A stretch of DNA of 44,589 nt from a virus. Both the position numbers and the translations under genes were made by a program. A model generated the notes under the pieces. The model ran no database searches. It was not told where the DNA came from and worked only from the letters and a program-made list of their open reading frames with translations. The stretch covers positions 1 to 44,589 of IMG/VR virus record IMGVR_UViG_3300022745_000058, one strand, 5' to 3'. This document shows, piece after piece, positions 1-43,503 of this stretch (positions are counted from its first letter, which is position 1; the number at the start of each line of letters is the position of its first letter).

Positions 1-917
1 GGATGCTTGAGCGCTTTGCACACCGCAGAGTTCGTCTCAATCGGGAACGGCTTCCAACGCTTGTCGGGAAGCTGGAGTTTTACGTCCTCTTTACTGCGCC
101 GCACCATCATGTACTTGCGCATCCGCCACTGCAAATCATCCAAGTTGACCGGCACGTTGCGTACTTCGTTGGACCAGTGCAGCCGCGTCTCGTAGTGGGG
201 CTGGCAGGGATTGCCGTTGGCATCACGTGACACCAGAACCTTCCCCCGCACCATGCCGCCGCCCTCGGTATAGTATTCCTCGCGGAAGCTCTCCAAGCTC
301 ATGCGGTCAATGGCGTCCCAATCGCAGAGACGGATGACGTTGTAGCATTCATCCGGCCTGCCGTTGGGGTTGATGGTGCCCGACGCCAGCGTGATACGAT
401 CCACGACAGAAGGCAGCATATCCGGGGCGCAGATTGCGCGGGTGCGCTTGTTGCCCTTGGGGTCTTTCAGCGCGTGGGCTTCGTCCAGGATCAGGTGGTC
501 CCACCGTTCGTCCAGCAGCGCGCCCATGATGCCGTCGTTGCGCAGCAGATCATAGGAGACGATGACGTAGTTGTGCAGCAGCGACACGCCGTCGCGCGAC
601 TTAAGAACGGGGTAGGTGGTGGCCCCCTCGATGTTGCTCCACATCCGAACCTCGCGCTCCCAATTGAGGCGCAGCGAGCCGGGGCAGACGATCAGGGTGT
701 ACTCGGCACCGAAAGAGTTGCCCGACAGCAGGGCTTCCGCAGTCTTGCCGAGGCCCTGCACATCACCAATCAGGCAGTGGCGTCGGCTGATCCTGTACTC
801 CACCGCCGCGTGCTGGTAAGGGTCAGGAACGACGCCGCTCCATTCCGGCCACGGTGCCGTGAAGAACGTCGGTTCTACCGCGCGAGACGCGAGGATATCA
901 GGATCAATATACGTCAT
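1..917 (-). CDS. SNF2-family DNA helicase, N-terminal 302 codons (continues at 44589)
   Basis: This is the N-terminal part of an SNF2/superfamily 2 ATP-dependent DNA translocase, presumably used in phage DNA replication or recombination. ATG at 917 follows the upstream stop by 7 bp. Visible motifs are the Walker A-like GLGKT at residues 55-59, the DEAH box at 145-148 in the context LILDEAHALKD, and motif III SGT at 179-181. Residues 229-233 (VSRDA) are encoded by a copy of the dispersed palindrome. The frame runs off base 1 and continues without interruption from base 44589 once the 11-bp end overlap is counted once, giving about 499 residues. It belongs to the leftward replication operon. 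Confidence 0.9.
   Translation of the reverse strand, partial: MTYIDPDILASRAVEPTFFTAPWPEWSGVVPDPYQHAAVEYRISRRHCLIGDVQGLGKTAEALLSGNSFGAEYTLIVCPGSLRLNWEREVRMWSNIEGATTYPVLKSRDGVSLLHNYVIVSYDLLRNDGIMGALLDERWDHLILDEAHALKDPKGNKRTRAICAPDMLPSVVDRITLASGTINPNGRPDECYNVIRLCDWDAIDRMSLESFREEYYTEGGGMVRGKVLVSRDANGNPCQPHYETRLHWSNEVRNVPVNLDDLQWRMRKYMMVRRSKEDVKLQLPDKRWKPFPIETNSAVCKALKH
219..234. repeat. Dispersed parS-like palindrome, in SNF2 helicase gene
   Basis: GGCATCACGTGACACC, a variant with changes in both outer arms and an intact ATCACGTGA core. Read in the VSRD frame of the helicase. Confidence 0.85.
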
Positions 918-924
918 GGTGAGA

Positions 925-1116
925 CTAAGCCCTCGCGCGCTTGTGGTCAGGGCCGAAGGAGACGACGAAATTCTCGCCGGTCTCCACCATCAAGGAGTTG
1001 CGGGCCGCCTTCGCCAGCGGCTTCGACGGGAAGGTGACGACCTTGCCCTCAGCCTTCACCGGCTCGCGGGTGCGAGCGTTGCGGACGATGTAGACGGACA
1101 GCGGCTGCTTCTTCAT
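925..1116 (-). CDS. Small conserved-looking phage protein, 63 aa
   Basis: I do not recognise this 63-residue protein. It is basic at both ends and contains a beta-rich segment resembling small phage proteins with a VYIVRN start and a K/R-rich tail. ATG at 1116 is chosen over ATG at 1122 because GGGAG lies 7 nt upstream of 1116, whereas it nearly touches 1122. The ORF sits between ligase (overlapping or adjoining its stop) and the SNF2 helicase in the same leftward operon, so a role in DNA metabolism is possible but is only inferred from position. Confidence 0.75.
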   Translation of the reverse strand: MKKQPLSVYIVRNARTREPVKAEGKVVTFPSKPLAKAARNSLMVETGENFVVSFGPDHKRARA

Positions 1117-1118
1117 GC

Positions 1119-2012: not shown

Positions 2013-2115
2013 TCTTCCTCTCCTTCATCCGCGCCGCCCAGGGCGTCCAGAGATAGCAAGCTCTTCTACTGCCTTAAGCCCCGCTGCGGATTGGCTACCG
2101 CATACGGGGCTGGCA

Positions 2116-2131
2116 GGTATCACGTGATACC
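2116..2131. repeat. Dispersed parS-like palindrome, intergenic
   Basis: Perfect copy ending one base before the stop codon complement (2133-2135) of the leftward coiled-coil gene, in the 120-bp gap upstream of the ligase gene. Confidence 0.95.
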
Positions 2132-2132
2132 G

Positions 2133-3284
2133 TTAGGCCGGGACGAAGCTCCCGCCCACCTGGGAAGCGACCCAGGCGGCGACGGCGGCCTGTTCCTTGC
2201 CGGTCAGGCGCGAGAACAACTGCTCGATCTTGTCCTTGGTGGGCAGTTCGTCGTGCTTCTTGAGGGCGGCGAACTTCTTCATCTCCTCCTCGGTGATGCA
2301 GCGGAAGCCGTTGCCCTCGGCCACGGTCTTGACCACGTTCTGCTTGATGTCCTTGGCGCAGGACGCCACGACCTGTTCCACGCGCTCCAGATCGGACAGG
2401 TTGCGCTTCGGAGCCGCGCCAGCGTTCGCGCCGTCATGGGCCGCCTTCTGCTCCGGGGTCAGTTCGGGCCGCTTGCCGATGCCGTTGGCCTTCTTGAACT
2501 CGGTGTAGGCTTCCGAGGCCGCCGCCATCTTGTCGGTCAGGACTTCCAGGGTGGTCGCGTCGTTCTCCATGGCGGTCTTGAGCGAAGCCGCCGCCTTGCC
2601 CAGCGTGCCCGCGCCGGTGGCCTTGTCGCCCGCCTGCTTGGTAGCGTCCTCGATCTTGACCAGCAGAGCCGTCGCCTTGGCTTCGGCGCGGTGCTTGCGG
2701 TTGCGCTCGGCATTCTGGTTGCGCATGTCTTCCAGCAGCAGCTTGCCCGCGCCTTCCTTCTCGTTCTCGGCAACGCCGATGGGGATCAGCTTGCGGACGG
2801 TCTCGTAGGACTGCTTGATGTTCTCGGCGCACCATTCGTCGAACTTGATCTTACCCTCGCGGCACCGCTCCTTGGCATCCGCCAGGAGGATGGCAGCGGC
2901 CAGACGCATGTCGTCGGCCTTGCCCGCCATCTGTTCCGCCTTCTCGAAGCGGACGTTGATCTCCTTGGCGTCCTTCTCCAGATTGGCGAGAGTGACCTTG
3001 CGGAAGCGCTCGGCTTCGGCGTCCTTGCTGGCCTTCTTCGCCAGGGCCTCGGCTTCACGCAGCGCCTTCTCGGCAGCCAGTTCGGCCTCGGTCTTCGAGG
3101 GCTTGGCCGGGGCCTTCTTGTCGTCGGCGGCCTTGCCTTCGGTCTTCTTCTTCTCGGCCTTGCCCTTGGCGGGAGCCTTCGCGGCTTCCTGCTTCTTGCC
3201 TTCGGTCTTCTTGGTGTGGGCCGCGCCAGCGAGGGCTTCGGCTTCGGCGAGGGCGGCAGCGCCCTTGGTGTCGGTGTTGGTCAT
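2133..3284 (-). CDS. Ala/Lys-rich coiled-coil protein with DUF3102-like segment
   Basis: This is a 383-residue protein without a firm family assignment. Residues 1-95 are a low-complexity Ala/Lys/Glu tract, probably disordered. Residues about 110-175 resemble DUF3102 of phage and mobile elements: an amphipathic helix, LLADAKERC, then a W-centred segment FDEWCAENI and a helix-turn-helix-like SYETVRKLIPIG. The rest is charged helix with several coiled-coil stretches and a conserved-looking C-terminal domain. ATG at 3284 has GGAAGGAA 8-12 nt upstream and replaces a longer possible start at 3329. It lies early in the leftward operon, between two palindrome copies. A DNA-binding role is inference only. 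Confidence 0.85.
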   Translation of the reverse strand: MTNTDTKGAAALAEAEALAGAAHTKKTEGKKQEAAKAPAKGKAEKKKTEGKAADDKKAPAKPSKTEAELAAEKALREAEALAKKASKDAEAERFRKVTLANLEKDAKEINVRFEKAEQMAGKADDMRLAAAILLADAKERCREGKIKFDEWCAENIKQSYETVRKLIPIGVAENEKEGAGKLLLEDMRNQNAERNRKHRAEAKATALLVKIEDATKQAGDKATGAGTLGKAAASLKTAMENDATTLEVLTDKMAAASEAYTEFKKANGIGKRPELTPEQKAAHDGANAGAAPKRNLSDLERVEQVVASCAKDIKQNVVKTVAEGNGFRCITEEEMKKFAALKKHDELPTKDKIEQLFSRLTGKEQAAVAAWVASQVGGSFVPA

Positions 3285-3347
3285 GGTGGGTTCCTTCCGT
3301 GGTGGGTTCTGTCTGTAAGCAACGACCATCTGGCCTGTCTCCTCTCT

Positions 3348-3363
3348 GGTATCACGTGACGCC
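3348..3363. repeat. Dispersed parS-like palindrome, intergenic
   Basis: GGTATCACGTGACGCC. Flanks TCT and AGA extend the symmetry to 22 bp with two internal mismatched pairs. It lies between the stop of the 62-aa gene and the start of the coiled-coil gene. Confidence 0.88.
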
Positions 3364-3904: not shown

Positions 3905-5881
3905 ATGAGTGCTTTGAAACAAGCAGCGCTGGAGTACGCCGCCAAAGGTTGGCCGGTGTTCCCGTGCAATGCCAGCAAGAAGCCGTATGTAGAAAACGGC
4001 GTGCTGGACGCGACGACTAGCCGAAAGCAAATCGAAGACTGGTGGGACACTTGGCCGAACGCCAACATCGCCTTGGATGTGGGCGGCGCTGGAATGGTCG
4101 TGCTGGACTTTGACCCCGGCCACGATTTGCGCGAAGTCGAAAAGAACATCGGCGCGCTGCCTGAGACCAAGCTGTCGCAGACCACCCCGCGCGGCGGCAA
4201 GCATCTGTTCTTCGCCAAGAAGCCCGACGAAGTAATTCCGCCGTCCGTCTCGAAGGTGGCCCACAAGGTAGACGTTCGCTCCTTCAATTCCTACGTTCTG
4301 CTGCCGCCCTCCAAGACTAAGGACGGCTCCTATGCTTGGACCAGCCAGGGCAAGCCTGCGTTCCGCTCCGACAAGCTGGCGGAAGTTGCCAAGCAGAAGC
4401 GCGAGACTTCCGAAGACCGCGACAACTGGCTGATCGAACCCGATCTTCCCGAGAACATCGCCGCTTGCGCTGACTGGCTCAAGAATAAAGCCCAAATCGC
4501 AGTCGAAGGCGTCAACGGCGACCACATGGCGTATTCTACCGCTGCCATGTGCAAGTCTTACGGCATCTCTCCACAGCTTGCCCTTGACTTGATGTGGGAA
4601 CACTGGAACCCCCGTTGCTCCCCGCCGTGGGCACCGGACGAAATCGAACACCTCGAAAATAAAATTCGGAACGGCTACAGCTACAATACTTCGCCGCCCG
4701 GCAACATGACCGCAGCCTACAAGGTGGCGCGGGCTCAAGAACTGTTCCGCCCGGTATCACGTGATACCGACCAGGGCGGCAAGGAAATCAAGGGCGGGCG
4801 TTTCCGTGTCGTCAATCGCCAAGGTATGGACGATATCAAGCCGTCTGAGTGGATACTTCACGACGCCGTCCCCATGGGCGGCTCCGGCTTGCTCATCGGC
4901 CCCCGTGGCACGTTCAAGACTTTCGTTGCCCTGGACATGGCGCTATCCATCGCCAGCGGCGGCAAGGATTACTTCGGCGGGGTTGCCGAGGACTGGCTGG
5001 GCGTGTGGCCTGACGTGGCGAAGCCTGGGGCTGTACTGTTCGCCGCTGGTGAAGGCCGTAGCGGTCTCAAGAAGCGCGTGGCAGCCTGGGAACAGCACCA
5101 CCTGGACGGAGGCCGGTGCGAGAACTTCTACCTGATCGACCCGGTTCCGGGGCCGAACGTAGACGACGTGACCGCCTTTATTGAGGCTGCACTTGCCATG
5201 AACCCCGAGGGATACCGGCTGGTAATCCTCGATACTGTAGGCCGCGCCATGGCTGGGCTAAACGAGAACAGCCAGCAAGACGCCTCGCTATACACGAAGA
5301 TGGTGGAAACTATTCTTCACGAACTCAGCGATAGCGTGCTGGGCCTGCACCATAGCGGCCACGGTACGGAAGGACGTGCGCGTGGTTCTTCTGTGTTCGG
5401 CGCTGACATTGACTTCGAGTTCGTCTTGGAGCGCAAAGACAAAGAGCATGTCATCCGCCTCAAGAACACGAAGCAGAAGGACGCCCAAGAATGGGAGCGT
5501 CCGAAGGTCGTGCAGTTGATCGAGAAGTCGGACAGCCTTGTTGCCGTGGCCCCGTCCAAGCAACTGGAAGAGAAGACCAACGCCGCCGCAGAACAGAAGA
5601 AGGAAAAGAAAGAGCGTGCCAAGGCTGACGATGCTATTGACTTGGGCGTCATTCGCCAAGCCGCTTATGAGTTCTTGAAGACCGCCCCCGGTAAGGAGTT
5701 CTCCGGCGCTCATCTGGCAATCAGCATCGCCGCCGATCCCAGGATCACCCTGGAAGACCGCATCATCCGAGAGCGCTACGTTGGAAAGCTGCTGGTAGAC
5801 AAGCAACACCCGATAGCAACGTGCTTTGATAGTCATAAGAAGGTGTGGCGATATTCGCCGCCGTTCTCGAAGAAGTCATAA
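3905..5881 (+). CDS. Bifunctional primase-polymerase / RepA-like helicase
   Basis: This 658-residue fusion makes primers and unwinds DNA at the phage fork. Residues 1 to about 170 are a Prim-Pol (archaeo-eukaryotic primase) domain: the KGWPVFPC start, catalytic acidic motif LDFDP at 67-71, and a PRGGKHLFF segment. A primase C-terminal helical domain follows to about residue 262. Residues from about 300 are a RecA-fold (AAA_25/RepA-like) helicase with Walker A GPRGTFKT at 332-339, Walker B LVILD at 439-443 and HHSGHG downstream. ATG at 3905 with AGGGGGGC upstream is chosen over TTG at 3902. A dispersed palindrome encodes VSRDT at 284-288, exactly in the inter-domain linker. Confidence 0.93.
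   Translation: MSALKQAALEYAAKGWPVFPCNASKKPYVENGVLDATTSRKQIEDWWDTWPNANIALDVGGAGMVVLDFDPGHDLREVEKNIGALPETKLSQTTPRGGKHLFFAKKPDEVIPPSVSKVAHKVDVRSFNSYVLLPPSKTKDGSYAWTSQGKPAFRSDKLAEVAKQKRETSEDRDNWLIEPDLPENIAACADWLKNKAQIAVEGVNGDHMAYSTAAMCKSYGISPQLALDLMWEHWNPRCSPPWAPDEIEHLENKIRNGYSYNTSPPGNMTAAYKVARAQELFRPVSRDTDQGGKEIKGGRFRVVNRQGMDDIKPSEWILHDAVPMGGSGLLIGPRGTFKTFVALDMALSIASGGKDYFGGVAEDWLGVWPDVAKPGAVLFAAGEGRSGLKKRVAAWEQHHLDGGRCENFYLIDPVPGPNVDDVTAFIEAALAMNPEGYRLVILDTVGRAMAGLNENSQQDASLYTKMVETILHELSDSVLGLHHSGHGTEGRARGSSVFGADIDFEFVLERKDKEHVIRLKNTKQKDAQEWERPKVVQLIEKSDSLVAVAPSKQLEEKTNAAAEQKKEKKERAKADDAIDLGVIRQAAYEFLKTAPGKEFSGAHLAISIAADPRITLEDRIIRERYVGKLLVDKQHPIATCFDSHKKVWRYSPPFSKKS
4753..4768. repeat. Dispersed parS-like palindrome, in primase-helicase gene
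   Basis: Perfect copy, read V-S-R-D-T, in the linker between the primase and helicase domains. Confidence 0.95.
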
Positions 5882-5938: not shown

Positions 5939-5954
5939 GGTATCACGCGATACC
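5939..5954. repeat. Dispersed parS-like palindrome variant, between convergent genes
   Basis: GGTATCACGCGATACC, one change in the core (CACGCG). It directly abuts the stop codon complement at 5955 of the leftward 89-aa gene. Confidence 0.88.
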
Positions 5955-7598: not shown

Positions 7599-7614
7599 GG
7601 CATCACGTGATACC
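7599..7614. repeat. Dispersed parS-like palindrome, after stop codon
   Basis: GGCATCACGTGATACC. One base separates it from the stop complement (7616) of the 36-aa gene. Confidence 0.93.
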
Positions 7615-9245: not shown

Positions 9246-9260
9246 GGTATCACGTGTGCC
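9246..9260. repeat. Damaged palindrome copy
   Basis: GGTATCACGTGTGCC, one base short in the right arm. Confidence 0.7.
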
Positions 9261-9291
9261 CAGGCTGAACGGCGGCGCGTGGCCCCGGCTT

Positions 9292-9442: not shown

Positions 9443-9797
9443 ATTTGGCAGCCCCGGCTTTCCGGCCTGATCCTACCAACGATCAGCCAAGGCACTGCCA
9501 TCGTAGTTGCAGCAGAAATGGATAGGGGGCGGTTTTCGTCGAGGCACTTCCGGGGGCCGACCGTCGAGGCAGTTTCGGATACTTCCAGATGTCCGCAGAC
9601 CCGCCCACGATTTCCAATAACAATCTGTAGTGCATGGTGTAGCAGCCGACTACCAGTCCGCAGAGCGGTCGGGCGACGTAGCTGCGCTACGGCTACTAAC
9701 GCTCAGCCAATGGCATCACGTGATACCGGGGAGGGTTCTTCCCGATGAGCCAACGATTGCCAATATTAAGCAAACGCAAATCCTAAAAAATTTTCGG
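9443..9797. other. Non-coding stretch with short hairpins
   Basis: CTGATC/GATCAG (9467-9486) and CGTAGC-TGC-GCTACG (9677-9691) are short inverted repeats. ORFs here have no ribosome sites and poor composition, so I call no gene. Confidence 0.45.
9712..9727. repeat. Dispersed parS-like palindrome, non-coding
   Basis: GGCATCACGTGATACC, within the non-coding region upstream of the late operon. Confidence 0.93.
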
Positions 9798-10700: not shown

Positions 10701-10948
10701 TGAGCAAGGCGCTCAGCTATTGCGGCGTGCGGGCGTTAGCCGGGAGGGAGATTGCCGACGAGATGTTCGGGCGAGTTCTCCCGGTGGCCTGGATATGGAC
10801 TTCCCGCCCGACCAGGAGATGGCGGCGAATATCGCTGCTGAGCGCGAGGCCCAAGAGAAAAAGTGCGCCAACTGTCCGCACGCGGGCTGCTGTTGGTGAC
10901 GGTTACGGCACCCGACCGCGAAGCGGGCTGGTGATTGGCATCACGTGA
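10700..10948 (+). CDS. Doubtful small ORF after terS, 82 aa
   Basis: ATG at 10700 overlaps the terS stop (TGATG). The first 27 codons look coding, but from about 10780 the frame becomes Arg/Ser-rich and low in GC3, while the -1 frame looks better (see 10795-10899). It ends only at the TGA inside a palindrome copy. Either only a short N-terminal peptide is made, or the two frames are parts of one gene joined by a frameshift. Confidence 0.3.
   Translation: MSKALSYCGVRALAGREIADEMFGRVLPVAWIWTSRPTRRWRRISLLSARPKRKSAPTVRTRAAVGDGYGTRPRSGLVIGIT
10795..10899 (+). CDS. Small Cys-rich ORF, 34 aa
   Basis: It has an acidic helix (PPDQEMAANIAAEREAQEKK) and a Cys cluster CANCPHAGCCW that could bind zinc. 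The ribosome site is only GGTGG at 7 nt. It lies in the frame -1 to the preceding ORF and may be its C-terminal part. Confidence 0.4.
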   Translation: MDFPPDQEMAANIAAEREAQEKKCANCPHAGCCW

Positions 10949-10952
10949 TACC
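10937..10952. repeat. Dispersed parS-like palindrome, abutting a ribosome site
   Basis: GGCATCACGTGATACC, directly followed by the GGAGG of the 48-aa gene at 10963. Confidence 0.93.
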
Positions 10953-12831: not shown

Positions 12832-13158
12832 ATGCAGAACTTGTTCGGGGAGGAAGAGGTATCACGTGATACCAACTACGACCACGAAGCCGGGAAGCGC
12901 TACTGCGCCATGCTGGGCTTGCAGTGGGACGAAGACTTCGCCCGCCGCGCTGACGAGATGGCGCACGACAACGACATGACGCAGGCGCAGTTCGATCTTC
13001 TGGTGCGTGAGTACGCCTGGAAGATCGCTTGGCTGTTCTGCCCGCGCACCTATCCCTGGAAGACCCGCGTCAAGCTGGCGCTGCACTTCCTCAACCCGTT
13101 CGCCCGTCACATCCAGGACGTGGCGGCGGAAAACCTCCAGAAGAACAAGGAGACCTAG
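12832..13158 (+). CDS. Unknown morphogenesis-operon protein, 108 aa
   Basis: It lies between terL and portal and is not recognised. It is helical, with a charged first half and an aromatic C-terminal half (YAWKIAWLFCPRTYPWKTRVKLALHFLNPF) that could be an amphipathic or membrane-associating helix. The dispersed palindrome encodes V10-T14 close to the N-terminus. The start ATG at 12832 is 3 bp after the terL stop. It may be a small assembly or head-associated factor; this is inferred only from position. Confidence 0.75.
   Translation: MQNLFGEEEVSRDTNYDHEAGKRYCAMLGLQWDEDFARRADEMAHDNDMTQAQFDLLVREYAWKIAWLFCPRTYPWKTRVKLALHFLNPFARHIQDVAAENLQKNKET
12858..12873. repeat. Dispersed parS-like palindrome, near gene start
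   Basis: Perfect copy, read V-S-R-D-T at residues 10-14 of the 108-aa protein. Confidence 0.95.
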
Positions 13159-13383: not shown

Positions 13384-15084
13384 ATGAAGAAGCGCCCTCA
13401 AGAAGCCGATGGTCCGTCCAAGTCCGACGTGCAGAAGGATTTGGATTACCTGAACCGCCGCATCTCCGAGATGGAGACCGAGCGGTCATCTTTCATTTCG
13501 CACTGGAAGGAACTCTCTGAGTTCGTGGACCCCCGGCGTGGGCGCTTCTTCCTCGAAGACCGGAACAAGGGCGACAAGCGCCACAAGAGCATCGTCAACA
13601 ACCACGCCACGGTTGCGCTCCGCAAGGCGACGGCGGGCATGTTCAACGGCGCCATGTCTCCGGCCCGTCCGTGGTTTGAGTACGACCTGATGAACCAGGA
13701 CTTGCTCAAGGATCAGGCCACAAAGGCGTGGCTGGACATGCTCAAGTTCGTCGTCCTCAAGGTACTGGTCTCCAGCAACTTCTACCAGATGGCTCCCGTC
13801 ATGCTACGGGAGTTGTTGCTGTTCGGCACCGGCTGCATGACGCATACGGACGATTTCGAGGACGTGGCCCGCTTCTACACGCACACGTGCGGCAGCTACT
13901 TGGTGGCGCAGAACCATCGTCAAGTAATCGACACCTTCGCTCGCAAGTTCCAGATGACGGCCATTCAGATGGTCTCTCGGTTCGGCTACGAGAATTGCAG
14001 CGTGGGCGTCCAGAACAATTACGACCGGGGCAACTACGGCCAGTGGCACACGGTCTACCACTTCATCGAGCCGAACCCCTTCCACGACCCGTCGAAGCTG
14101 ACTTCTTCGTTCTTCCCCTACCGCTCCATCTATTTCGAGCCGGGCAAGAACAAGAGCGAGAACGTGGGCTATCTGTCGCGCAAGGGCTACAAGGGCTTCC
14201 CCGTTTACGTTCCCCGGTGGGAGACCACCAACGAGGACGTGTACGGCACCAATTGCCCCGGCATGACCAGCCTGGGCGACGTGAAGGGCTTGCAGTTCCA
14301 GGAACGCGAGAAGGCCAAGGCGATTGCCAAGAACAACACCCCGCCGATGCAGGGTCCGACTTCGCTGCGCAACCAGCCCATCGCCAACCTGCCGGGCGGC
14401 TTCACGGGCACCAGCGCCTCGGGGCAGATCAAGCCGCTGTACGAGGTGGACCCGCGCATCCAAGAGATGATGATGGACATCAAGGCGACGGAGGGCCGCA
14501 TTGACGAGGGCTACTTCGTGCCGCTGTTCATGGCTATCACGGAGATGCAGGGCATCCAGCCGAAGAACGAGTTGCAGTTGAAGCAGATCGACAGCGAGCG
14601 ACTGTTGCAGCTTGGCCCGGTGCTGGAGCAAATCCACGGCGAATGGCTGTCCAAGATGGTGCTGCGTGTCTCGCATCAAGTCATCGCGGCTGGCATCATG
14701 CCGCCCAAGCCGAAGCAGCTTCAAGGCCACGACCTGGGCCTCCAGTTCGTGTCGGCTCTCGCCATGGCGCAGCGTTCGGTTGCCCTCGGCTCCATCGAGC
14801 GCACCGTGAGCTTCGCGGGCGCGCTGCGTGTCGGCGGCTGGGACGTGTCCCACAAGATCGACCCCTACGGCGTCTTCGAGGATTACGCCGCCCTCAACGG
14901 CTTCCCGCAGAAGCGCATCGTGGATGACGCCACGGCGCAGGCGCAGCAGCAGGCGCAGTTGGCGGCGATGCAGCAGCAGCAAGCCCTGGACAACGGGCAG
15001 AAGGTGCTGAACATGGCGAAGATGGCTTCGGACGCTAAGCTCAATGACAAGAGCGTCCTGTCCAAAGTCACGGGGAATGCGTAA
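13384..15084 (+). CDS. Portal (head-to-tail connecting) protein
   Basis: The dodecameric portal through which DNA enters and leaves the head, 566 residues, of the T7 gp8/head-tail connector family. Evidence: size, position after terL, the N-terminal helix with LDYLNRRISEMETER, the FVDPRRGRF segment, and the core TAGMFNGAMSPARPWFEYD that is characteristic of the family. The C-terminus is Gln-rich coiled coil. ATG at 13384 follows AGGAAAC. Its stop overlaps the next gene's ATG at 15084. Confidence 0.93.
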   Translation: MKKRPQEADGPSKSDVQKDLDYLNRRISEMETERSSFISHWKELSEFVDPRRGRFFLEDRNKGDKRHKSIVNNHATVALRKATAGMFNGAMSPARPWFEYDLMNQDLLKDQATKAWLDMLKFVVLKVLVSSNFYQMAPVMLRELLLFGTGCMTHTDDFEDVARFYTHTCGSYLVAQNHRQVIDTFARKFQMTAIQMVSRFGYENCSVGVQNNYDRGNYGQWHTVYHFIEPNPFHDPSKLTSSFFPYRSIYFEPGKNKSENVGYLSRKGYKGFPVYVPRWETTNEDVYGTNCPGMTSLGDVKGLQFQEREKAKAIAKNNTPPMQGPTSLRNQPIANLPGGFTGTSASGQIKPLYEVDPRIQEMMMDIKATEGRIDEGYFVPLFMAITEMQGIQPKNELQLKQIDSERLLQLGPVLEQIHGEWLSKMVLRVSHQVIAAGIMPPKPKQLQGHDLGLQFVSALAMAQRSVALGSIERTVSFAGALRVGGWDVSHKIDPYGVFEDYAALNGFPQKRIVDDATAQAQQQAQLAAMQQQQALDNGQKVLNMAKMASDAKLNDKSVLSKVTGNA

Positions 15085-15383
15085 TGGGCACACGTGATAC
15101 CAAGACCCGTGAAGACGCTGAGCGGGAACTGCTGCTTAAGGTGCTGGGCACCCCCGCTGGGCGGCGCGTCGTCTACAACATCTTGGCGAAGGGCAGCATT
15201 TACGGGCACGTCAGCACCGACCCGGCGGCCGCTCAGCGCGAGCTTGGACGCCGGGACGTGGCGCTGGAAGTGCTTCAAGACGTGTTGACCGTATATCCCG
15301 ATGTGTATATATTGATGCAGCAAGAAGCGGCTCGCTTCGATTTGGACTATCCTGTCACCCAAGGGGAAGAGGACGATGGCTGA
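15084..15383 (+). CDS. Bbp19-like phage protein, 99 aa
   Basis: It resembles the Bbp19 protein of Bordetella phage BPP-1, encoded between portal and scaffold/capsid genes. The segment LGTPAGRRVVYNILAKGSIYGH followed by AAAQRELGRRDVALEVLQDV is the recognisable domain (roughly residues 20-72). Function unknown, presumably head-associated. The palindrome copy covers codons 2-6 (GTRDT), directly after the start. Its 3' part contains a strong internal promoter at 15285-15313. The end overlaps the scaffold start by 8 bp. Confidence 0.8.
   Translation: MGTRDTKTREDAERELLLKVLGTPAGRRVVYNILAKGSIYGHVSTDPAAAQRELGRRDVALEVLQDVLTVYPDVYILMQQEAARFDLDYPVTQGEEDDG
15087..15101. repeat. Palindrome copy with one-base deletion, at gene start
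   Basis: GGCACACGTGATACC, lacking one T in the left arm. It encodes G-T-R-D-T right after the initiator Met of the Bbp19-like protein. Confidence 0.85.
15285..15313 (+). promoter_or_regulatory. Internal promoter upstream of scaffold/capsid
   Basis: TTGACC (15285-15290), 17 nt, TATATT (15308-15313), 63 bp before the scaffold start. It forms a sharp AT-rich island in GC-rich coding sequence. Confidence 0.65.
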
Positions 15384-17173: not shown

Positions 17174-17189
17174 GGCATCACGTGATACC
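17174..17189. repeat. Dispersed parS-like palindrome with extended arms
   Basis: GGCATCACGTGATACC; flanks GCCCT and AGGGC extend the symmetry to 26 bp (17169-17194). It lies 12 bp after the capsid stop and may also act as a weak hairpin terminator. Confidence 0.95.
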
Positions 17190-18567: not shown

Positions 18568-18583
18568 GGTATCACGTGATACC
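18568..18583. repeat. Dispersed parS-like palindrome, after stop codon
   Basis: Perfect copy beginning 5 bp after the stop of the 147-aa gene. Confidence 0.95.
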
Positions 18584-18639: not shown

Positions 18640-19245
18640 ATGCCCATCGGGTTCGACAAAGTGAAGATCGCCAACATGGCGCTGGGCAACATCGGCGTGG
18701 GCGACCGTATCAGCAGCTTCGATGACAGGTCGCCGGAGGCCAGCGCTGCCAAGCTCTGGTACGACCCGGCGCGCATCGCTGCCCTGGAAGCCTACAACTG
18801 GTCCTTCGCGCGCAAGAGCCAAGCGCTGGCGCAGCACGATCTTCCCGCGCCCGAAATGCGCTGGCGCTACAGGTATCAGGTTCCGTCCGACTACGTGGCC
18901 GCTCGCATGGTGGAGAACCCGGCTGGCGTTCATGCCGACGCGGTTCCCTACGAAATCGAAACGGCGGATGACGGCTCGCTGTCCATCGTCACCGACATGG
19001 CGAACGCTAAGTTGATCTACACCTTCGACCAGCAGAACGTGCAGCTTTTCAGCATGCACTTCACCACGCTTATGGCGTTCCAAATGTCGGTCTTCCTCTG
19101 CTACGAACTGGCGGGCAAGTTCGGCATTGTGGATCGCATGCAGCGCCAAGTCACCGCCTTGCGCAACGACGCCCCGAATGCGGATGCTTCCGCCAGCGTT
19201 GGCGTTCCTGAGCGTGACGCCATTTGGATTAGGGAGCGTTCATAA
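18640..19245 (+). CDS. Tail tubular protein A (T7 gp11-like)
   Basis: The adaptor ring joining portal to nozzle in short-tailed phages, 201 residues. The family signature is clear: KIANMALGNIG, then SPEASAAKLWYDPARIAALEAYNWSFARK, then a WRYRYQVPSDY segment. ATG at 18640 is preceded by GGGAGACGAGAG. Its stop overlaps the start of the nozzle gene by one base, coupling their translation. Confidence 0.92.
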   Translation: MPIGFDKVKIANMALGNIGVGDRISSFDDRSPEASAAKLWYDPARIAALEAYNWSFARKSQALAQHDLPAPEMRWRYRYQVPSDYVAARMVENPAGVHADAVPYEIETADDGSLSIVTDMANAKLIYTFDQQNVQLFSMHFTTLMAFQMSVFLCYELAGKFGIVDRMQRQVTALRNDAPNADASASVGVPERDAIWIRERS

Positions 19246-22277: not shown

Positions 22278-22740
22278 CCGATACCAGATACGGAAGCCCT
22301 GCGCCGAAGACTTAGCGCTCATCGCCGCCAACATGCGGGAGAGCGATAAGGACGAAGCGTGGGCTTCCCACCACTTCACGCCATCGGAAGCCCTGGCGCA
22401 CTCCATCTCGGTATCACGTGATACCGCGTTCGTTGGGGAAGCGGACGGCGTTCCGGTGTGCGCGTTCGGGGTGCAGCCGCCTAGCCTTCTCGGCACGGTG
22501 GCCTGCCCATGGCTGCTGGGCACCGATGGCGTCAACGTCTATTCCAAGCCGTTCTTGAAGTACAGCTTGGAATGGGTTCGCGGTATCAGGCTTGAGTTCC
22601 CCGAGCTTGAGAACTATGTGGACGCCCGTAACACCGCGTCGATACGGTGGTTGCGCTGGCTGGGCTTCACGATCTATAATCCAGAGCCGTGGGGCAGAGA
22701 TGGGCTGCTGTTCCACCGTTTCGACATGAGGAGGGTGTAA
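22264..22740 (+). CDS. Gp13-like / acetyltransferase-fold protein, 158 aa
   Basis: It resembles the T7 gp13-type protein encoded after the nozzle gene, which is related to GNAT acetyltransferases. Visible are the N-terminal IRKPCAEDLALIAANMRESD, the strand FVGEADGVPVCAFGV and the C-terminal NTASIRWLRWLGFTIY, the usual end of a GNAT fold. ATG at 22264 (after GAGGAAGGTG) overlaps the nozzle gene. Residues 50-54 (VSRDT) come from the dispersed palindrome, in the region between the first helices and the first core strands. Catalytic activity is uncertain. Confidence 0.75.
   Translation: MTPNSRYQIRKPCAEDLALIAANMRESDKDEAWASHHFTPSEALAHSISVSRDTAFVGEADGVPVCAFGVQPPSLLGTVACPWLLGTDGVNVYSKPFLKYSLEWVRGIRLEFPELENYVDARNTASIRWLRWLGFTIYNPEPWGRDGLLFHRFDMRRV
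22410..22425. repeat. Dispersed parS-like palindrome, in gp13-like gene
   Basis: Perfect copy, read V-S-R-D-T at residues 50-54. Confidence 0.95.
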
Positions 22741-31437: not shown

Positions 31438-33089
31438 TGTCCACCGCAAGGCAGCGTCGTCGCGGAACGACCGCTCAGCACGCTACGTTCACCGGCCTTC
31501 TCGGCGAAATCACCGTCGATACGACGAAGAAGACGTTGGTTGTCCACGACGGGGCCACGGCTGGCGGCTTCCCGCTGCCGACCTTGAACGGCGTCGAGAC
31601 GCTGGGCAACAAGACCCTGGCCTCTCCGACGCTGAGCGGCACCATCACCCTGCCCGGCAACGACAGCATTTCGTCCTCTGGCGTGCTGGCGGTGTATAGC
31701 GGCCAGACGTATGACGTGACTGTCCAGGGCGGTAGCTCTGGCGGCCAAGTGTCGTCTGGCGGCAACCTCACGCTGAACGCGGGCAGCGGCGGATACCTGT
31801 TGCACAAGATCAACGGGACTGAGTACGGGCGTATCGACAACTCGGGCAACGTGACCTTGGGTGGCGCTGCGTCTACCCCCGCCACGCTGATCTCCAACAC
31901 GGCGTCTCAGGTCAACTACCTGCGCATCCGTGGCGCTGCGACCACCGGCAACGTCGGCCTTAGCGCGTTGGGTTCCGACACTGACGTGAGCTTCGACTAC
32001 CTTACTCAAGGCGCGGGCTCGCACACGTTCAGGACCGGAGGCAACGCCGGTCAGTACCCGCAATTCCGCGTCTCGCACACCGTGAGCGCCGTTAACTACC
32101 TTGACGCCACGGGCGGGGCGGTGGGCACGGGCACGTCTCTCATCGCGCGCGGCTCCGACACGAACGTCAGTGCGGCTTACGCGACCAAGGGCGGCGGAAA
32201 CCATTTCTTCTACACGAATTTCAGCGCGCCTCAACTCAACATCGCGCACACCGCAAGCGCGGTTAACTACCTGCAAATCACGGGTGGGACGGGTTCGACG
32301 GGCGGCGCCGTGTCTGCCCAAGGTAGCGGCAGTAACTTGGATATTGGCTGGCAGACTAAGGGTACGGGCGCCCACTACTTCCAGACGAACGGCACCGTAA
32401 ACCAGTTCGTCGTCAACCACGTCGCGAGCGCCGTCAACTACCTGCAAGTCCAGGGCGCTACCACCGGCAACAACGCTAAGATGTTCGGCGTCGGCAGTGA
32501 CACCGACGTATACATGGACTACATCGCCAAGGGTACGGGCGGGCATATCTTCCGCACGGGTGGCGCTGGCGGTCAGTACGCGCAGTTCCGCGTCAACAAT
32601 ACCACCAGCGCCGTGAACTACGTGCAAGCCACTGGTGGCGCCACTGGAGCTTCGGCAATCGTCGGCGCTACCGGGTCTGACACCAACGTGTACCTCGCCT
32701 TGACCACGAAAGGCGCTGGCGCTGTCAATTTCAATACCGGGGGCGGCACGCAGTTCCAAGTGCTCGATACCGTCAGCGCTGCGAACTACCTGCAAGCGAC
32801 CGGCGCGGTGACCGGCGGCAACGTGAACTTCTACGCGGCGGGCACTGATACGAACGTCGGCATCAATGTGCAGGCTAAAGGCAGCGCGGCGGTGCAGCTT
32901 GTCAATGGTAGCGCCGGGTGGATGATGGCTGTCGGCCCCTACGGCGGCGGCAATCGCGTTGCGTATATCCGCAACACCGACACTTCGGTTACCAGCAACC
33001 CCTCGGGCGGCGGCTATCTATACGTCGAAAGCGGCGCCCTGAAATACCGTGGTTCCAGCGGCACGGTTACCACTCTCGCTGCGGCATAG
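31437..33089 (+). CDS. Tail fibre protein with tandem beta repeats, 550 aa
   Basis: The N-terminus RQRRRGTTAQHATFTGLLGE followed by ITVDTTKKTLVVHDG is the short beta domain seen at the start of many fibre distal proteins, including the tropism determinant of BPP-1. Residues about 150-500 are seven or so repeats of about 45-50 residues: SAVNYLQxTGG, then GSDTNVxxxxxTKGxGxHxFxT, then QFxV. These probably form a trimeric beta-prism or helix shaft. The C-terminal WMMAVGPYGGGNRVAYIRNTD may be receptor-facing. ATG at 31437 is in TAATG overlap with the anchor gene. Confidence 0.82.
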   Translation: MSTARQRRRGTTAQHATFTGLLGEITVDTTKKTLVVHDGATAGGFPLPTLNGVETLGNKTLASPTLSGTITLPGNDSISSSGVLAVYSGQTYDVTVQGGSSGGQVSSGGNLTLNAGSGGYLLHKINGTEYGRIDNSGNVTLGGAASTPATLISNTASQVNYLRIRGAATTGNVGLSALGSDTDVSFDYLTQGAGSHTFRTGGNAGQYPQFRVSHTVSAVNYLDATGGAVGTGTSLIARGSDTNVSAAYATKGGGNHFFYTNFSAPQLNIAHTASAVNYLQITGGTGSTGGAVSAQGSGSNLDIGWQTKGTGAHYFQTNGTVNQFVVNHVASAVNYLQVQGATTGNNAKMFGVGSDTDVYMDYIAKGTGGHIFRTGGAGGQYAQFRVNNTTSAVNYVQATGGATGASAIVGATGSDTNVYLALTTKGAGAVNFNTGGGTQFQVLDTVSAANYLQATGAVTGGNVNFYAAGTDTNVGINVQAKGSAAVQLVNGSAGWMMAVGPYGGGNRVAYIRNTDTSVTSNPSGGGYLYVESGALKYRGSSGTVTTLAAA

Positions 33090-33494: not shown

Positions 33495-33522
33495 GCGTCT
33501 GGCATCACGTGATGCCAGACGC
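33495..33522. repeat. Perfect 28-bp palindrome containing a dispersed copy
   Basis: The core GGCATCACGTGATGCC (33501-33516) has both outer-arm positions changed in a compensating way. Flanks GCGTCT and AGACGC extend it to a perfect 28-bp palindrome between two genes. It may also form a hairpin in the mRNA. Confidence 0.95.
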
Positions 33523-34625: not shown

Positions 34626-34641
34626 GGTATCACGTGATACC
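34626..34641. repeat. Dispersed parS-like palindrome, after stop codon
   Basis: Perfect copy starting 4 bp after the stop of the receptor-binding gene. Confidence 0.95.
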
Positions 34642-37109: not shown

Positions 37110-37125
37110 GGTATCACGTGATACC
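37110..37125. repeat. Dispersed parS-like palindrome, after stop codon
   Basis: Perfect copy directly abutting the stop complement (37126) of DNA polymerase and 15 bp upstream of the nuclease start. Confidence 0.95.
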
Positions 37126-39466: not shown

Positions 39467-39482
39467 GGTATCACGTGATACC
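39467..39482. repeat. Dispersed parS-like palindrome between stop codon and terminator
   Basis: Perfect copy, one base from the SSB stop complement (39484) and 3 bp from a hairpin terminator. Confidence 0.95.
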
Positions 39483-40187: not shown

Positions 40188-40733
40188 CTAGGCGCGCAGG
40201 CTTTCCTCGGCTTCGGTCTCGGAGCGGTGGCCGCAGTCGCATTCACCACACTTGCCCTGGCACTGCTTCTCGTCCTCCAGGACCAGCGTCCAGTCGTCGG
40301 CGAACATATCCACCTGAGACGGGTTCCACACCGCCACGCTGCCGTCAGCCGCCTTCATGTCGATGTGCGGGCGGTAGGTGATCGGAGTGCCTTCCGGGTA
40401 GATGCCCAGCAGCGGCGGGCGATTGACCTTGAACTCGCTGCCCGGCACCATGAAGATGAACATGCCCTTGCCGTTCCAGCCTTCGCGGGCCACGCGGCAG
40501 CCTTCCTTGAGGGCGGTCAGGGCCGCGCCGAAGGTCAAGCCGGTGTGCGGCTTCGAGGCTACGGCGGCTTCGAGCGCTTCCTTAACGCGGGCAAAGGAGC
40601 CCACCTCGGGAAAATCGTAGCTCGACCAGCGCTTCAAGTCTTCTTCCGAAATCTTGTCGCAGTCGCCGTAGCCCGCGCCGCTCATGAAAGCGTGCCGCAA
40701 GCACTGGCTGAAAGAGAACAGAAGGTTCGCCAT
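40188..40733 (-). CDS. tad2: Tad2-like (DUF2829) protein, probable anti-Thoeris
   Basis: Residues 65-152 carry the DUF2829/Tad2 domain: LTFGAALTALKEGCRVAREGWNG, then the GMFIFMVP strand, PITYRPHIDMKAADGSVAVWNPSQ and DMFADDWTLV. Tad2 proteins bind and sequester cyclic ADP-ribose-type signals that activate the Thoeris defence effector; some members also trap CBASS signals. The first 60 residues are a helical extension, and the C-terminus has a Cys cluster (CQGKCGECDCGH). ATG at 40733 has GGAAGGATAAGTAA upstream. It lies between the SSB and nuclease genes in the early operon, as expected for an early anti-defence gene. Ligand specificity cannot be read from sequence. Confidence 0.82.
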   Translation of the reverse strand: MANLLFSFSQCLRHAFMSGAGYGDCDKISEEDLKRWSSYDFPEVGSFARVKEALEAAVASKPHTGLTFGAALTALKEGCRVAREGWNGKGMFIFMVPGSEFKVNRPPLLGIYPEGTPITYRPHIDMKAADGSVAVWNPSQVDMFADDWTLVLEDEKQCQGKCGECDCGHRSETEAEESLRA

Positions 40734-41891
40734 TTACTTATCCTTCCTCGGCTTGAACAGGGACTTCGCGTCCCGGATAACGCGCTCCCGAGGATCGCCC
40801 TCGATAGCCACGGTGGTTGCTCCCTCGGGCTTGAAGGCCCAGCGAGCGGTGAAATCCTTGCCGCCCGGCATCTCGTCAATCTGAGCCGGGGTCTTGAACT
40901 CGGGGGCCGTGAAAGCCTTCGCGCCGAACGTCTTCTTCGCCGCAGCTTCGGCTCCATCCTTGAACACGCGGTTGGTGCGCGCGGCCACCTGCTTGACGCC
41001 GGGCACATCCTTACCGGCGCTGAGCCGGCCATGCGCCACCTTTTCGGCGGCCTTGAAGACGATCTTGCCGATCTCCTTCAACTCCAGCAGACGACCAAGC
41101 TGCGCCGGAGTGAGAGCTTCCGCCCCCTTCTCGTCCTTGAGCGCCATCCTCATCAACTCCTCTAGCTCTGCCATCGCGTTCATGAGCGCGGGGCACTGGC
41201 GGGAACGGGCGGGGCAGAAGCGGCAATGCTCGCCAGCGACGGTATCACGTGATACCAGCGCCCGCTCCATCGCCGGAATGCACACGTCCTCCAGCCACTC
41301 GATGAGCGTGGCCGTGCTTACCTTCCAGGTCCGGTGCGGGCCTTCGATATGCCAGCCGCGCGGCTGAACGATGTGGATAACCACATCATCCACATCATCC
41401 CAAAGTTCAAGCTCCTCCAGGATGCCGCAGGCGTAGTACATGCCTTGGGGGTTGCCCTCGGCTTCCACGACAATCCCAGCGCCATGCTTGTAATCCCACA
41501 CGTGCAGCGTCCGCATCCGCAGGTACACGTAGGTGAAGTCGGACGTGCCGAAAAAGTAGCGGTGGATAGTCGGGCAGTGGAACCGGCGCTCAACCCAGCT
41601 ATTGTCTGAGGTGCGCTCGGGGTGCCACTCGTTGACCGAATTGACGTAGTAGGCAACGGCGTTCGCCATCTCGCTCGTCACCATCTGCCCTTCCATGGGC
41701 AGGTTGATGTACTCCCACGGCTCGTAGCCGTGCTTCAAGCAACCCTCGCCCACGGCATGAGCGGCGGTTCCCTCCCTGGCGAAGTCGCTCTCCTCGTCTT
41801 CCACGCCCTGCGACATGATGACGGAGCCAGGGCAGGCAAGCCAGCGGTAAGAGCCGGAGGCACCCAGCGGAGAGTGGCCCATACCGCTCAT
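40734..41891 (-). CDS. DUF2800 / RecB-like PD-(D/E)XK exonuclease
   Basis: A 385-residue phage nuclease of the DUF2800 family, related to Cas4/RecB nucleases. N-terminal LGASGSYRWLACPGSV and AREGTAAHAVGEGCL are the family start; the nuclease core has YFFGTSDFTYV (D) and LHVWDYKHGAGI (D-x-K). The C-terminal Cys set, beginning HCRFCPARSRQC, may bind Fe-S. Start ATG 41891 overlaps the upstream stop (ATGA). VSRDT at about 213-217, just before the Cys segment, is encoded by the palindrome. It probably processes DNA ends in recombination. Confidence 0.85.
   Translation of the reverse strand: MSGMGHSPLGASGSYRWLACPGSVIMSQGVEDEESDFAREGTAAHAVGEGCLKHGYEPWEYINLPMEGQMVTSEMANAVAYYVNSVNEWHPERTSDNSWVERRFHCPTIHRYFFGTSDFTYVYLRMRTLHVWDYKHGAGIVVEAEGNPQGMYYACGILEELELWDDVDDVVIHIVQPRGWHIEGPHRTWKVSTATLIEWLEDVCIPAMERALVSRDTVAGEHCRFCPARSRQCPALMNAMAELEELMRMALKDEKGAEALTPAQLGRLLELKEIGKIVFKAAEKVAHGRLSAGKDVPGVKQVAARTNRVFKDGAEAAAKKTFGAKAFTAPEFKTPAQIDEMPGGKDFTARWAFKPEGATTVAIEGDPRERVIRDAKSLFKPRKDK
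41241..41256. repeat. Dispersed parS-like palindrome, in DUF2800 nuclease gene
   Basis: Perfect copy, V-S-R-D-T frame, between the nuclease core and the Cys-rich segment. Confidence 0.95.
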
Positions 41892-42079: not shown

Positions 42080-42096
42080 GCTGCCCTCCGAAAGAA

Positions 42097-42118
42097 TGCC
42101 GGGGCCGAAGCCCCGGCA
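42097..42118 (-). terminator. Leftward terminator overlapping a palindrome copy
   Basis: Minus-strand TGCCGGGGC-TTCG-GCCCCGGCA then TTCTTT. The last 4 bp of the hairpin are the first 4 bp of the palindrome. Confidence 0.8.
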
Positions 42119-42130
42119 TCACGTGATACC
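42115..42130. repeat. Dispersed parS-like palindrome overlapping a terminator stem
   Basis: GGCATCACGTGATACC, 5 bp from the stop complement (42136) of the basic-repeat gene. Confidence 0.93.
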
Positions 42131-42135
42131 AGCGA

Positions 42136-42723
42136 TTAGTCGCCGATCTCGTCTTCCTCGATCTCGCCCAACTCGTAGCGGATCGTGTTGATGAACTTCT
42201 GGCGCTTGTCGGCGGGGATGCCGTCGAGCTTGCCGCTGTCCGAGAACTCGCCGATGATCTCGGCAGTCACCTTCGGGCCGAGGTTCTGAGCGGCGTTGCT
42301 CGCGGCCTTCGCCACGTCATCGGCGGTCGGACCCTTCGGCTTCTCCGGCTCGCTGGCGCCATTGCCGCGACGGCGACGACCAGCGGGCTTCTCCTCGGCT
42401 TCGGCTTCCGGCTCTTCCTTGGCCGCGCCACGGCGACGGCGGGGAGCCGCTTCTTCCTTCGACTCTTCCTTCTCCTCGGCAGCCGCGCCACGGCGACGGC
42501 GGGGCTGAGCGGGTTCGGGCTCCGGCTCCGGCTCCGGTTCGGCCTCGGGGGCAGGGCCGCCCTCGAAGCGACCGGCGGCCTCGGCCAGCACGTCGGTCAG
42601 CATCGCCACGTCATCGGGGTCCAGTTCGACGTTGCCCGGCATGTAGGCCGAGACGGTGATCTTCTTGCGCCCGTCATCGGTGCTTTCCACCGACAGCGCG
42701 CAGACTTCCACGACGTTCTTCAT
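42136..42723 (-). CDS. Protein with three Arg-Gly basic repeats in an acidic linker, 195 aa
   Basis: Residues 1-60 are a small structured domain (VSAYMPGNVELDPDDVAMLTDVLAEAAG). Residues 60-130 are Glu/Pro-rich and contain three similar basic units: PRRRRGAA, PRRRRGAA and GRRRRGNG. These resemble AT-hook/RGG-type DNA- or RNA-binding tails. A helical C-terminal domain follows (VAKAASNAAQNLGPKVTAE). ATG at 42723 follows GGAAGGATCATATA. It has its own operator-bearing promoter. It may be a nucleoid-type DNA-binding protein; this is inference. Confidence 0.78.
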   Translation of the reverse strand: MKNVVEVCALSVESTDDGRKKITVSAYMPGNVELDPDDVAMLTDVLAEAAGRFEGGPAPEAEPEPEPEPEPAQPRRRRGAAAEEKEESKEEAAPRRRRGAAKEEPEAEAEEKPAGRRRRGNGASEPEKPKGPTADDVAKAASNAAQNLGPKVTAEIIGEFSDSGKLDGIPADKRQKFINTIRYELGEIEEDEIGD

Positions 42724-42758
42724 TATATGATCCTTCCTATCCAAACGATGGTGAACAA

Positions 42759-42787
42759 CCTTTATCCGGGAAACCGGATAAAGTCAA
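42759..42787 (-). promoter_or_regulatory. Leftward promoter with embedded TTTATCC-N8-GGATAAA operator
   Basis: Minus-strand TTGACT (42787-42782), 17 nt, TAAAGG (42764-42759). The inverted repeat TTTATCC/GGATAAA (42761-42782), 9-bp stem counting inner bases, fills the promoter. The same operator recurs at 9042-9063. Confidence 0.6.
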
Positions 42788-43503
42788 GTGGAGCTTTCGC
42801 CCCGGTTGCGCGCCGCAGCTTCGCCCTTGAGAGCGACATAAGCAGCGCCGTCCTCGTAGTTGTCGGGGCGGTAGCCATTATGCTCCGCACGAACACACTT
42901 GAGGAGTTCCATGAACAGCCAGCCCTGTTCTTCCGAAAGCTGGTGCCCGGTGACGGCGTTGAACGCGGCCACGGTGGGAGCCATCGAACGCTCGCCTTCC
43001 GGCTTATCGTATTGCGTGGCTCGGTCCTTCATATGCCCAGCAGCAGCCTTGAGAATATCCGTCGCCTGCACCTTCGGCTCGTCGCCGTAGAAGAGGCGAT
43101 TGATGAAGTCCACGGCGGGGGAGCGCCCGTAGCGCTCTTGCTGCGCGAGGCACTTCTCGATCTCGTCCTTGTCTTCGACTTTCTCCATGCGCAGTTTGCC
43201 GGTGCGCCAGTCGTAGTAGACGCGATGCAAGACGGCGCTATCGCTGCCGCGCGCCAAATCGAAGCCGAAGAACGTGGGCTGTTCCTTGGTATCACGTGAT
43301 GCCGAAGCGCCCTCCGTCTTCGCGGTCAGGTACGTGATGATCTCAGCGGGCACGTACATCTCGTCCAGCGGATGACCGCCCACGCCGAACGTCGGCTTCT
43401 CGACCTTCAACCCGACGACGCTCTGACCGCCAACGGCGGCCAAGCAAATGCTGTTGATCTCCCACTCGCAGCCGTTGAGCTTTACCTTGTCACCGACCTT
43501 CAT
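42784..43503 (-). CDS. DUF6378-type phage protein with N-terminal beta domain, 239 aa
   Basis: The C-terminal 90 residues (ILKAAAGHMKDRATQYDKPEGERSM, then FNAVTGHQLSEEQGWLFMELLKCVRAEHNGYRPDNYEDGAAYVAL) match DUF6378, a helical phage domain whose pattern recalls MazG-like nucleotide pyrophosphohydrolases. The N-terminal 60 residues are a beta domain. A second middle part contains FFGFDLARGSD. Residues 68-72 (ASRDT) come from a palindrome copy in the linker. ATG at 43503 directly follows the upstream stop (TAGATG) with AGGAGGAG. A role in nucleotide metabolism is plausible. Confidence 0.78.
   Translation of the reverse strand: MKVGDKVKLNGCEWEINSICLAAVGGQSVVGLKVEKPTFGVGGHPLDEMYVPAEIITYLTAKTEGASASRDTKEQPTFFGFDLARGSDSAVLHRVYYDWRTGKLRMEKVEDKDEIEKCLAQQERYGRSPAVDFINRLFYGDEPKVQATDILKAAAGHMKDRATQYDKPEGERSMAPTVAAFNAVTGHQLSEEQGWLFMELLKCVRAEHNGYRPDNYEDGAAYVALKGEAAARNRGESST
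43288..43303. repeat. Dispersed parS-like palindrome, in DUF6378 gene
   Basis: GGTATCACGTGATGCC, read A-S-R-D-T on the minus strand in a linker. Confidence 0.93.

Follow-up and report, generated by a model that had tools for sequence, protein, structure and literature searches.

The virus record IMGVR_UViG_3300022745_000058 of IMG/VR, analysed here over its whole length of 44,589 bases and hereafter called the window, carries 28 sites of a 16-bp palindrome, GGTATCACGTGATACC, dispersed within and between its genes. From comparison of these sequences with those of relatives, we judge it an evenly balanced proposition that the palindromes are sites for a phage-encoded protein that organises the phage genome, most likely the product of the gene at 2133-3329 on the minus strand. 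Somewhat more tentatively, we see in these phages a largely integrase-free clade with its own sequence-specific organiser, which would comprise a new protein family with a helix-turn-helix (HTH) core and a K/A-rich N-terminus, dispersed and spaced palindromes, co-drifting of the two, and selected spacing. A dimer of the candidate protein would read each 16-18-bp palindrome through its HTH, and the bound protein together with its basic N-terminus would turn the phage DNA into an organised nucleoprotein, whether bridged, compacted or spaced; this role is proposed because the sites lie genome-wide, within as well as between genes. Control of the phage's own transcription, the candidate gene included, may be a by-product or a second role. 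An initial annotation of the window had allowed that a dispersed array of binding sites might serve an unrecognised phage protein, and this part of it is supported as the most likely.

The palindrome array in the window

Within three mismatches of the 16-mer we found 28 sites, with first bases from 219 to 43288, of which 14 are perfect, eight carry one change, four carry two and two carry three. Dinucleotide-preserving shuffles of the window (100 in all) gave a mean of 0.05 sites and a maximum of one, and a separate de novo search returned 28 sites against 0.14 expected; a chance origin of the array is excluded. These counts agree with the initial annotation, which had reported about 28 palindromes genome-wide and seven copies with one outer-arm change. 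Seven of our eight single changes are indeed in the outer arm (six at position 3 and one at position 14), and the eighth, at 5939, is in the core. The largest site-free gap, put earlier at 3.8 kb, measures 3842 bp and spans the gene labelled nozzle (a label which, like portal, spike, cement, int1 and fib, was given by gene order in annotated relatives and not by family search). In six contigs the conserved information ends at the 18-bp palindrome TGGTATCACGTGATACCA, and no conserved promoter boxes or promoter-like flanks adjoin the sites in these six. The sites, and the candidate gene among them, are as follows.

219-234: array site, 2 changes; inside SNF2 helicase gene
1227-1242: array site, perfect; inside DNA ligase gene
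2116-2131: array site, perfect; 1 bp past candidate binder gene
2133-3329, minus strand: candidate array-binding protein gene; 398 aa from ATG 3329, 383 aa from ATG 3284
3348-3363: array site, 2 changes; 63 bp upstream of candidate binder start if ATG 3284
4753-4768: array site, perfect; inside prim-pol gene (VSRDT)
5939-5954: array site, 1 core change
7599-7614: array site, 1 change
9246-9261: array site, 3 changes
9712-9727: array site, 1 change
10937-10952: array site, 1 change
12858-12873: array site, perfect; near the start of an open reading frame (ORF)
15086-15101: array site, 3 changes; start codon of gene 15084-15383
17174-17189: array site, 1 change; between major head protein gene and next gene
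18568-18583: array site, perfect; intergenic
22410-22425: array site, perfect; inside gene 22252-22740
23456-23471: array site, perfect
24275-24290: array site, 1 change; at start codon
27041-27056: array site, perfect; deep inside gene 25866-30128
28244-28259: array site, perfect; deep inside gene 25866-30128
30168-30183: array site, perfect; start of gene 30154-31437 (label fib)
33501-33516: array site, 2 symmetric changes
34626-34641: array site, perfect; just past stop codon
36253-36268: array site, 2 core changes
37110-37125: array site, perfect; between PDDEXK nuclease and DNA polymerase A genes
39467-39482: array site, perfect; just past ssDNA-binding protein gene
41241-41256: array site, perfect; inside DUF2800 gene
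42115-42130: array site, 1 change
43288-43303: array site, 1 change; inside gene 42784-43503

The earlier statement that the array covers the whole circle calls for a reservation, since circularity is unproven. The record has no direct terminal repeat in the range of 20-399 bases, and the SNF2 helicase gene, split across its two ends (1-917 and 43996-44589), is out of frame when these are joined directly, so that the record may miss or add bases there.

Arrays and the candidate gene in related phages

The initial annotation had pointed to related phages as a place to look for further copies of the 16-mer, and they exist. An exact scan of IMG/VR returned 53 stretches, including several contigs with many copies, and de novo motif search of 14 long contigs found the array in 13 of them (p from 5e-15 to 2e-70, against a shuffled best of 3e-4 to 2e-6), at 9 to 30 sites per contig of 31-49 kb. 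In G003, G004 and G014 the array motif was outscored by GC-rich repeats, which are separate from it. The fourteenth contig, G012, lacks array-type palindromes by the same search (best palindromes E 4e-10). A prim-pol profile gave 46 loci, 26 of which (L064-L089) have a prim-pol 43-55% identical to that of the window; a palindrome of the array kind is among the best two motifs in 24 of these 26, the exceptions being L068 and L069, and the L068 contig nonetheless holds five sites with up to three mismatches. In the 20 loci L090-L109, where prim-pol is about 30% identical, no such palindrome is listed.

A general pattern counted over 17 contigs gave 5-27 matches in 15, a single match that is not site-like in G012 and none in G015. 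We dropped G015 and G058 (the contig of L151) as exceptions, that is, as carriers of the candidate gene with few or no perfect pattern matches, since de novo search revealed a variant array in the former (eight near-sites of TAGATCACGTGATCTA in 19.9 kb, 2e-14) and a sparse one in the latter (nine near-sites of GGTATCACGTGATACC in 52.3 kb, 8e-13). Apparent second motifs in G006, G008 and G001 were rejected as local tandem repeats. Those of G008 (L128, about 504-690) are intergenic, iteron-like 11-bp repeats that array sites flank and interrupt, and those of G006 (L126, 17796-18080) are in-gene 15-bp repeats, possibly of a pentapeptide-repeat protein, as guessed from the period.

The sites of a lineage drift in concert, to the consensus variants GGTATCACGTGATACC, GGTATTACGTAATACC, GGGATCACGTGATCCC, GGTGTGACGTCACACC, GGTCTCACGTGAGACC and TAGATCACGTGATCTA, and the site core in some relatives is TGACGTCA or TTACGTAA. 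The array is thus the mark of a podovirus-like, uncultured set of phages, each lineage of which has its own consensus. The nearest named phages at the DNA level, BcepC6B and HU1, match over the head protein gene (first 25 kb searched); these two and the cultured AF, Tr60_Ab31, Carin1 and MZH0603 have at most two near-sites each, allowing up to four mismatches to the window consensus. A pattern-based prim-pol scan of bacterial genome contigs yielded five relatives, all metagenome-assembled, with 0-2 near sites each. Literature searches found no description of such an array in the portions of the sources available, where the 14-mer GTATCACGTGATAC was met only in work on the human factor MITF.

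The array and the candidate gene are inherited together. The gene is present in 23 of the 26 clade loci and in none of the 20 outgroup loci (L090-L109); the clade loci without it are two fragments, L066 and L081, and L069, the contig of G012. A profile built from 17 members matched G000-G011, G013-G017 (17 clade records) and G058 at E 1.4e-60 or better, and all 18 of these records carry an array. Only a distant homologue (E 1e-13) is found in the arrayless G012. No match was obtained in 15 outgroup records (ten from IMG/VR and five of the six cultured phages named above), and two queries of 50,697 phage records found no such gene. Six records have a second profile match, at E 8e-62 to 5e-11 in five of them and 3e-5 in G013. 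When the ORFs of the 14 contigs were clustered, only two families were present in all 13 array contigs yet missing from G012, namely the candidate gene and ORFs antisense to SNF2.

Relatives without the array, which the initial annotation had named as possible evidence against it, were sought through the major head protein, among the 80 loci that a scan listed. Head-protein relatives show both states, and the site-free ones examined also lack the candidate gene: 25 contigs chosen as not known to carry sites (22 longer ones and three added after checking; 17-46 kb, ten of them at least 35 kb; head protein 64-74% identical) had neither a site-pattern match nor the gene. This count leaves out the site-carrying head-protein relatives G011 and G014, both with the gene, G053-G057 and G058. 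No examined contig of at least 35 kb has an array without the candidate gene. Of 11 non-redundant contigs, 7 have a site in the 100 bp that precede the gene, as compared with 66 of 483 genes overall (p ~2e-4, with start codons picked by the analyst), which suggests that the candidate gene is autoregulated.

Placement of the sites and features of the candidate protein

Of the 222 sites in 13 contigs, with the close relatives G004, G007 and G009 all included, a simple gene call places 117 between genes, where 8-21% would be expected per contig. A further 35 are inside a gene but no more than 60 bp from its start, and the other 70 are deep coding sites. Site positions recur homologously even though protein identity is only about one half. 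Gene 22252-22740 has a site at homologous codons in 10 of the 12 array contigs with the gene, and the DUF2800 gene has one at homologous codons, just before a cysteine motif, in 9 of 13. Other sites recur just upstream of the fib gene (10 of 11 array contigs; in the window the site is at the gene start), and the 50 bp before the portal-position gene contain one in 8 of 13. The nozzle-position gene (window 19245-22277, about 3 kb) was found in 12 array contigs and has no internal site in any of them.

Outside G005, in-gene sites are read 67 times in frame 2, giving VSRDT, 18 times in frame 1 and three times, all in G006, in frame 0, which holds TGA. The consensus of G005 puts TGA in frame 2, and four of its five in-gene sites use frame 0; in G011 (GGTCTC...GAGACC) the peptides in four genes are VSRET and not VSRDT. 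Where the consensus changes in a lineage, the encoded peptides change with it, and the conserved thing looks to be the DNA rather than the peptide.

The spacing of the sites is not random. Against uniform placement it is even (p < 0.05) in G000, G001, G002, G003, G006 and G010, that is, in 6 of the 11 contigs covered (those without G014 and G007). Random placement within position classes, a generous null because it draws several sites into one long intergenic stretch, is beaten in 12 of 13 contigs (G005: 0.055). Re-placing only the deep coding sites at random made the spacing less even, with p < 0.05 in 9 of 13; both of these last two tests treat contigs as circles. Combined by Fisher's method over 11 contigs, the spacing values come to 3e-18 and 3e-13, which overstate independence since the contigs share ancestry. 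The deep coding sites tend to fill gaps in the array, and this favours a job that covers the whole molecule, such as organisation, compaction, shielding or interval-wise roadblocks.

In members of the candidate family a K/A-rich N-terminus, whose net charge ranges from +4 to +21, is followed by a core of about 110 residues and by a C-terminal part that varies. AlphaFold modelled the window protein with a mean pLDDT of 80.5 overall and 89.1 in the core, which is predicted to be all helical, with a short helix (50-57) followed by a second (62-77) placed as in an HTH; in the window protein, counted from ATG 3284, these are 148-155 and 160-175. The core would presumably bind DNA. Searches of Pfam, PHROG and PDB sequences gave no credible relative. 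Fold matches to DnaK, DnaA, and Spo0J with parS (E 8.9) were judged to be chance helical matches, and armadillo-repeat matches of the core profile (E 3e-6 and 1e-5, to designed proteins) were likewise put down to chance.

Where a phage has two copies of the protein, the presumed recognition helix (13 residues) can be far better conserved between them than the rest of the core, with 92% against 52% identity in G011, 92% against 52% in G008 and 77% against 43% in G017; means over 19 proteins are 52% and 42%. Such high helix identity is seen in three of five pairs. The four proteins of GGGATC type have R at helix position 10, and R occupies positions 0 and 7 in the main proteins of GGTGTG type, which come from two contigs, so that the presumed recognition helix appears partly to follow the site type.

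Several results weigh against the candidate protein as reader and organiser of the array. Foldseek gave no match at E 0.001 by which the fold of a DNA-binding domain would be confirmed; VIA-align gave only middling matches, DnaA domain IV with DNA (Z 4.7-5.0) standing among unrelated helical rows. The two copies of G002, and those of G005, do not share a helix, and the main G002 protein, of GGTATC type, also has R at position 10, the mark of the GGGATC type; the per-position listing excludes three misfits (both G002 proteins and the second of G005), and the helix-site match was noticed post hoc. In a Mantel test the whole-protein distances of the candidate were null against motif distance (r 0.09, p 0.37), and motif distance tracks those of prim-pol (r 0.45, p 0.014) and SNF2 (r 0.40); coevolution of the whole protein with the motif is thus unsupported. 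The uniform null of the spacing test is not beaten in G004, G005, G008, G009 and G011. Finally, G053-G057 (8-19 kb) have one to five sites and no candidate gene, as fragments may.

It is possible, if clearly less probable than an organising role, that the same phage protein acts by analogy with stoperators and mainly blocks transcription elongation and initiation, for lytic timing or for the immunity of a non-integrating carrier state. The intergenic excess, the sites near gene starts and those upstream of the portal-position and fib genes would all suit such a function, as would position 6, where 15 of 16 wobble-type asymmetries have the same direction relative to transcription (most of them in G004, G007 and G009, which are closely related). 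One contig, G003, encodes an integrase, and the dispersed sites of cluster A mycobacteriophages are similar in number and have a motif specific to each genome, as far as the available parts of the papers describe them (PMC6550527, PMC9283540). However, the stoperators described there are asymmetric and oriented with transcription while the present sites are palindromic, nearly a third of these are deep coding sites, which tend to fill gaps, no conserved promoter boxes adjoin them, and 13 of 14 contigs have no tyrosine integrase (serine integrases were not sought). What is kept of the stoperator alternative in the initial annotation is a functional analogy. Control of lysogeny seems less likely, since a tyrosine integrase occurs in G003 only and since the scan of bacterial genomes gave relatives in metagenome-assembled contigs only.

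An unlikely alternative would have the array read by another phage protein and gene 2133-3329 merely co-inherited. The association of the candidate with the array is indeed one of co-occurrence, and prim-pol and SNF2 distances track motif distance better than the candidate's do. Against this, the prim-pol, SNF2, SSB, DUF2800 and TerS families are all present in the arrayless G012, the helix residues of the candidate partly track the site type, and the candidate gene is often flanked by sites.

The initial annotation had likened the palindrome to parS, the site of ParB, and had proposed a ParB/Noc-like reader. The core TCACGTGA is the same as that of parS, and 12 of 16 positions agree with the parS consensus given there (TGTTTCACGTGAAACA), but the site is not conserved as parS is: related phages have arrays with the cores TTACGTAA and TGACGTCA, and such drift among relatives that keep the array is unlike what is expected for the site of a conserved host ParB. 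The ParB_N domain (PF02195) was found in none of 18 contigs at E 0.1, with positive controls in 11 of 14 genomes, and the ParA-type ATPase domain AAA_31 (PF13614), the only ParA-type model tried, in none of the 18, with controls positive in 14 of 14. A phage-encoded ParABS system is therefore excluded as far as these two models reach, and the identification with parS, ParB or Noc is not supported. Given also that presence of the array tracks a phage gene, it is very improbable that the sites serve a host protein (ParB, Noc or another nucleoid protein) recruited or titrated by the phage. Least credible of all is an RNA element, the palindrome transcript folding as a 6-bp stem with an ACGU loop: sense-strand G-U pairs do exceed A-C (32 to 17 without G007 and G009, p 0.044), but there are 56 other stem-pair mismatches against 43 G-U (30 unclear-strand sites set aside), asymmetry is commonest at pair 3, many sites lie deep in genes, and the window itself has four A-C against two G-U.

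As for the remaining content of the window, family or homology searches assigned a terminase, a major head protein, a T7 gp14-like internal virion protein, an Mtd-type tail protein, a lysozyme and Rz, together with the replication genes for polymerase A, prim-pol, SNF2 helicase, ligase and an Enc34-type ssDNA-binding protein; tRNA and Rfam searches gave no matches. The tail protein (31437-33089, plus strand) has an N-terminal Mtd_N domain, that of the BPP-1 major tropism determinant (PF18454, E 1.4e-14). A predicted Tad2-like (Thoeris anti-defence 2) domain is encoded at 40188-40733 on the minus strand (PF11195, E 3e-25), in an ORF that overlaps the start of the ssDNA-binding protein gene.

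Comparison with known systems

To our knowledge, few phage-encoded proteins are known that bind specific sites at intervals and thereby organise the phage genome. Among bacterial chromosome organisers, MatP/matS, SlmA and Noc have dispersed palindromic sites through which one protein shapes a region of the genome; these are host chromosomal systems, and no sequence or fold link from them to the candidate phage protein was found. In the present phages the sequences of 13 long contigs (31-49 kb) reveal the site and its spacing as well as a candidate reader, and several natural site-protein variants exist that are suited to the comparison of binding specificity. A gene family that matches neither Pfam nor PHROG thereby obtains a testable function. 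The replacement of VSRDT by VSRET also provides a genome-wide site whose change of consensus accompanies altered residues in unrelated proteins, an instance of selection at the DNA level that works through coding regions.

By analogy, and within what the available parts of the sources describe, the systems nearest in kind are the stoperators of cluster A phages and the SPBRE element of SPbeta, with KorB on RK2 as a further analogue. In the cluster A mycobacteriophages L5, Bxb1 and TipsytheTRex, some two dozen dispersed operators and stoperators serve one phage protein, and the motif differs between related phages (PMC9283540, PMC6550527), just as the many dispersed sites described here differ in consensus by lineage. 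Those stoperators are asymmetric 13-mers oriented with transcription and placed in promoters or short intergenic gaps of temperate phages (PMC9283540, PMC6550527), whereas ours are non-randomly spaced palindromes, many of them deep in genes, with polarity only at position 6 in a few contigs and with integrase mostly absent. Sequence searches with the candidate, against Pfam, PHROG and PDB, recognised no relation to the cluster A repressor with its HTH and Stoperator domain.

SPBRE and its repressor MrpR (YopR), a recombinase-like protein, likewise combine a repeated phage element with a phage protein that binds it. SPBRE was first found in silico and, unlike the genome-covering array, is a 15-bp motif in the promoter regions of ten named genes (PMC10516654, as far as available). 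KorB is a ParB-family CTPase clamp, and the phages here have no ParB_N domain. The KorB operators on RK2 are multiple and palindromic. They resemble the array in that one protein has operators for the long-range control of a mobile element (PMC11790492, as far as available). As far as we have seen in these sources, none of the systems compared brings together the candidate's family and a palindromic site that is dispersed genome-wide, coding sequence included, and array and gene together look like a virus-encoded means of marking and organising its own DNA.

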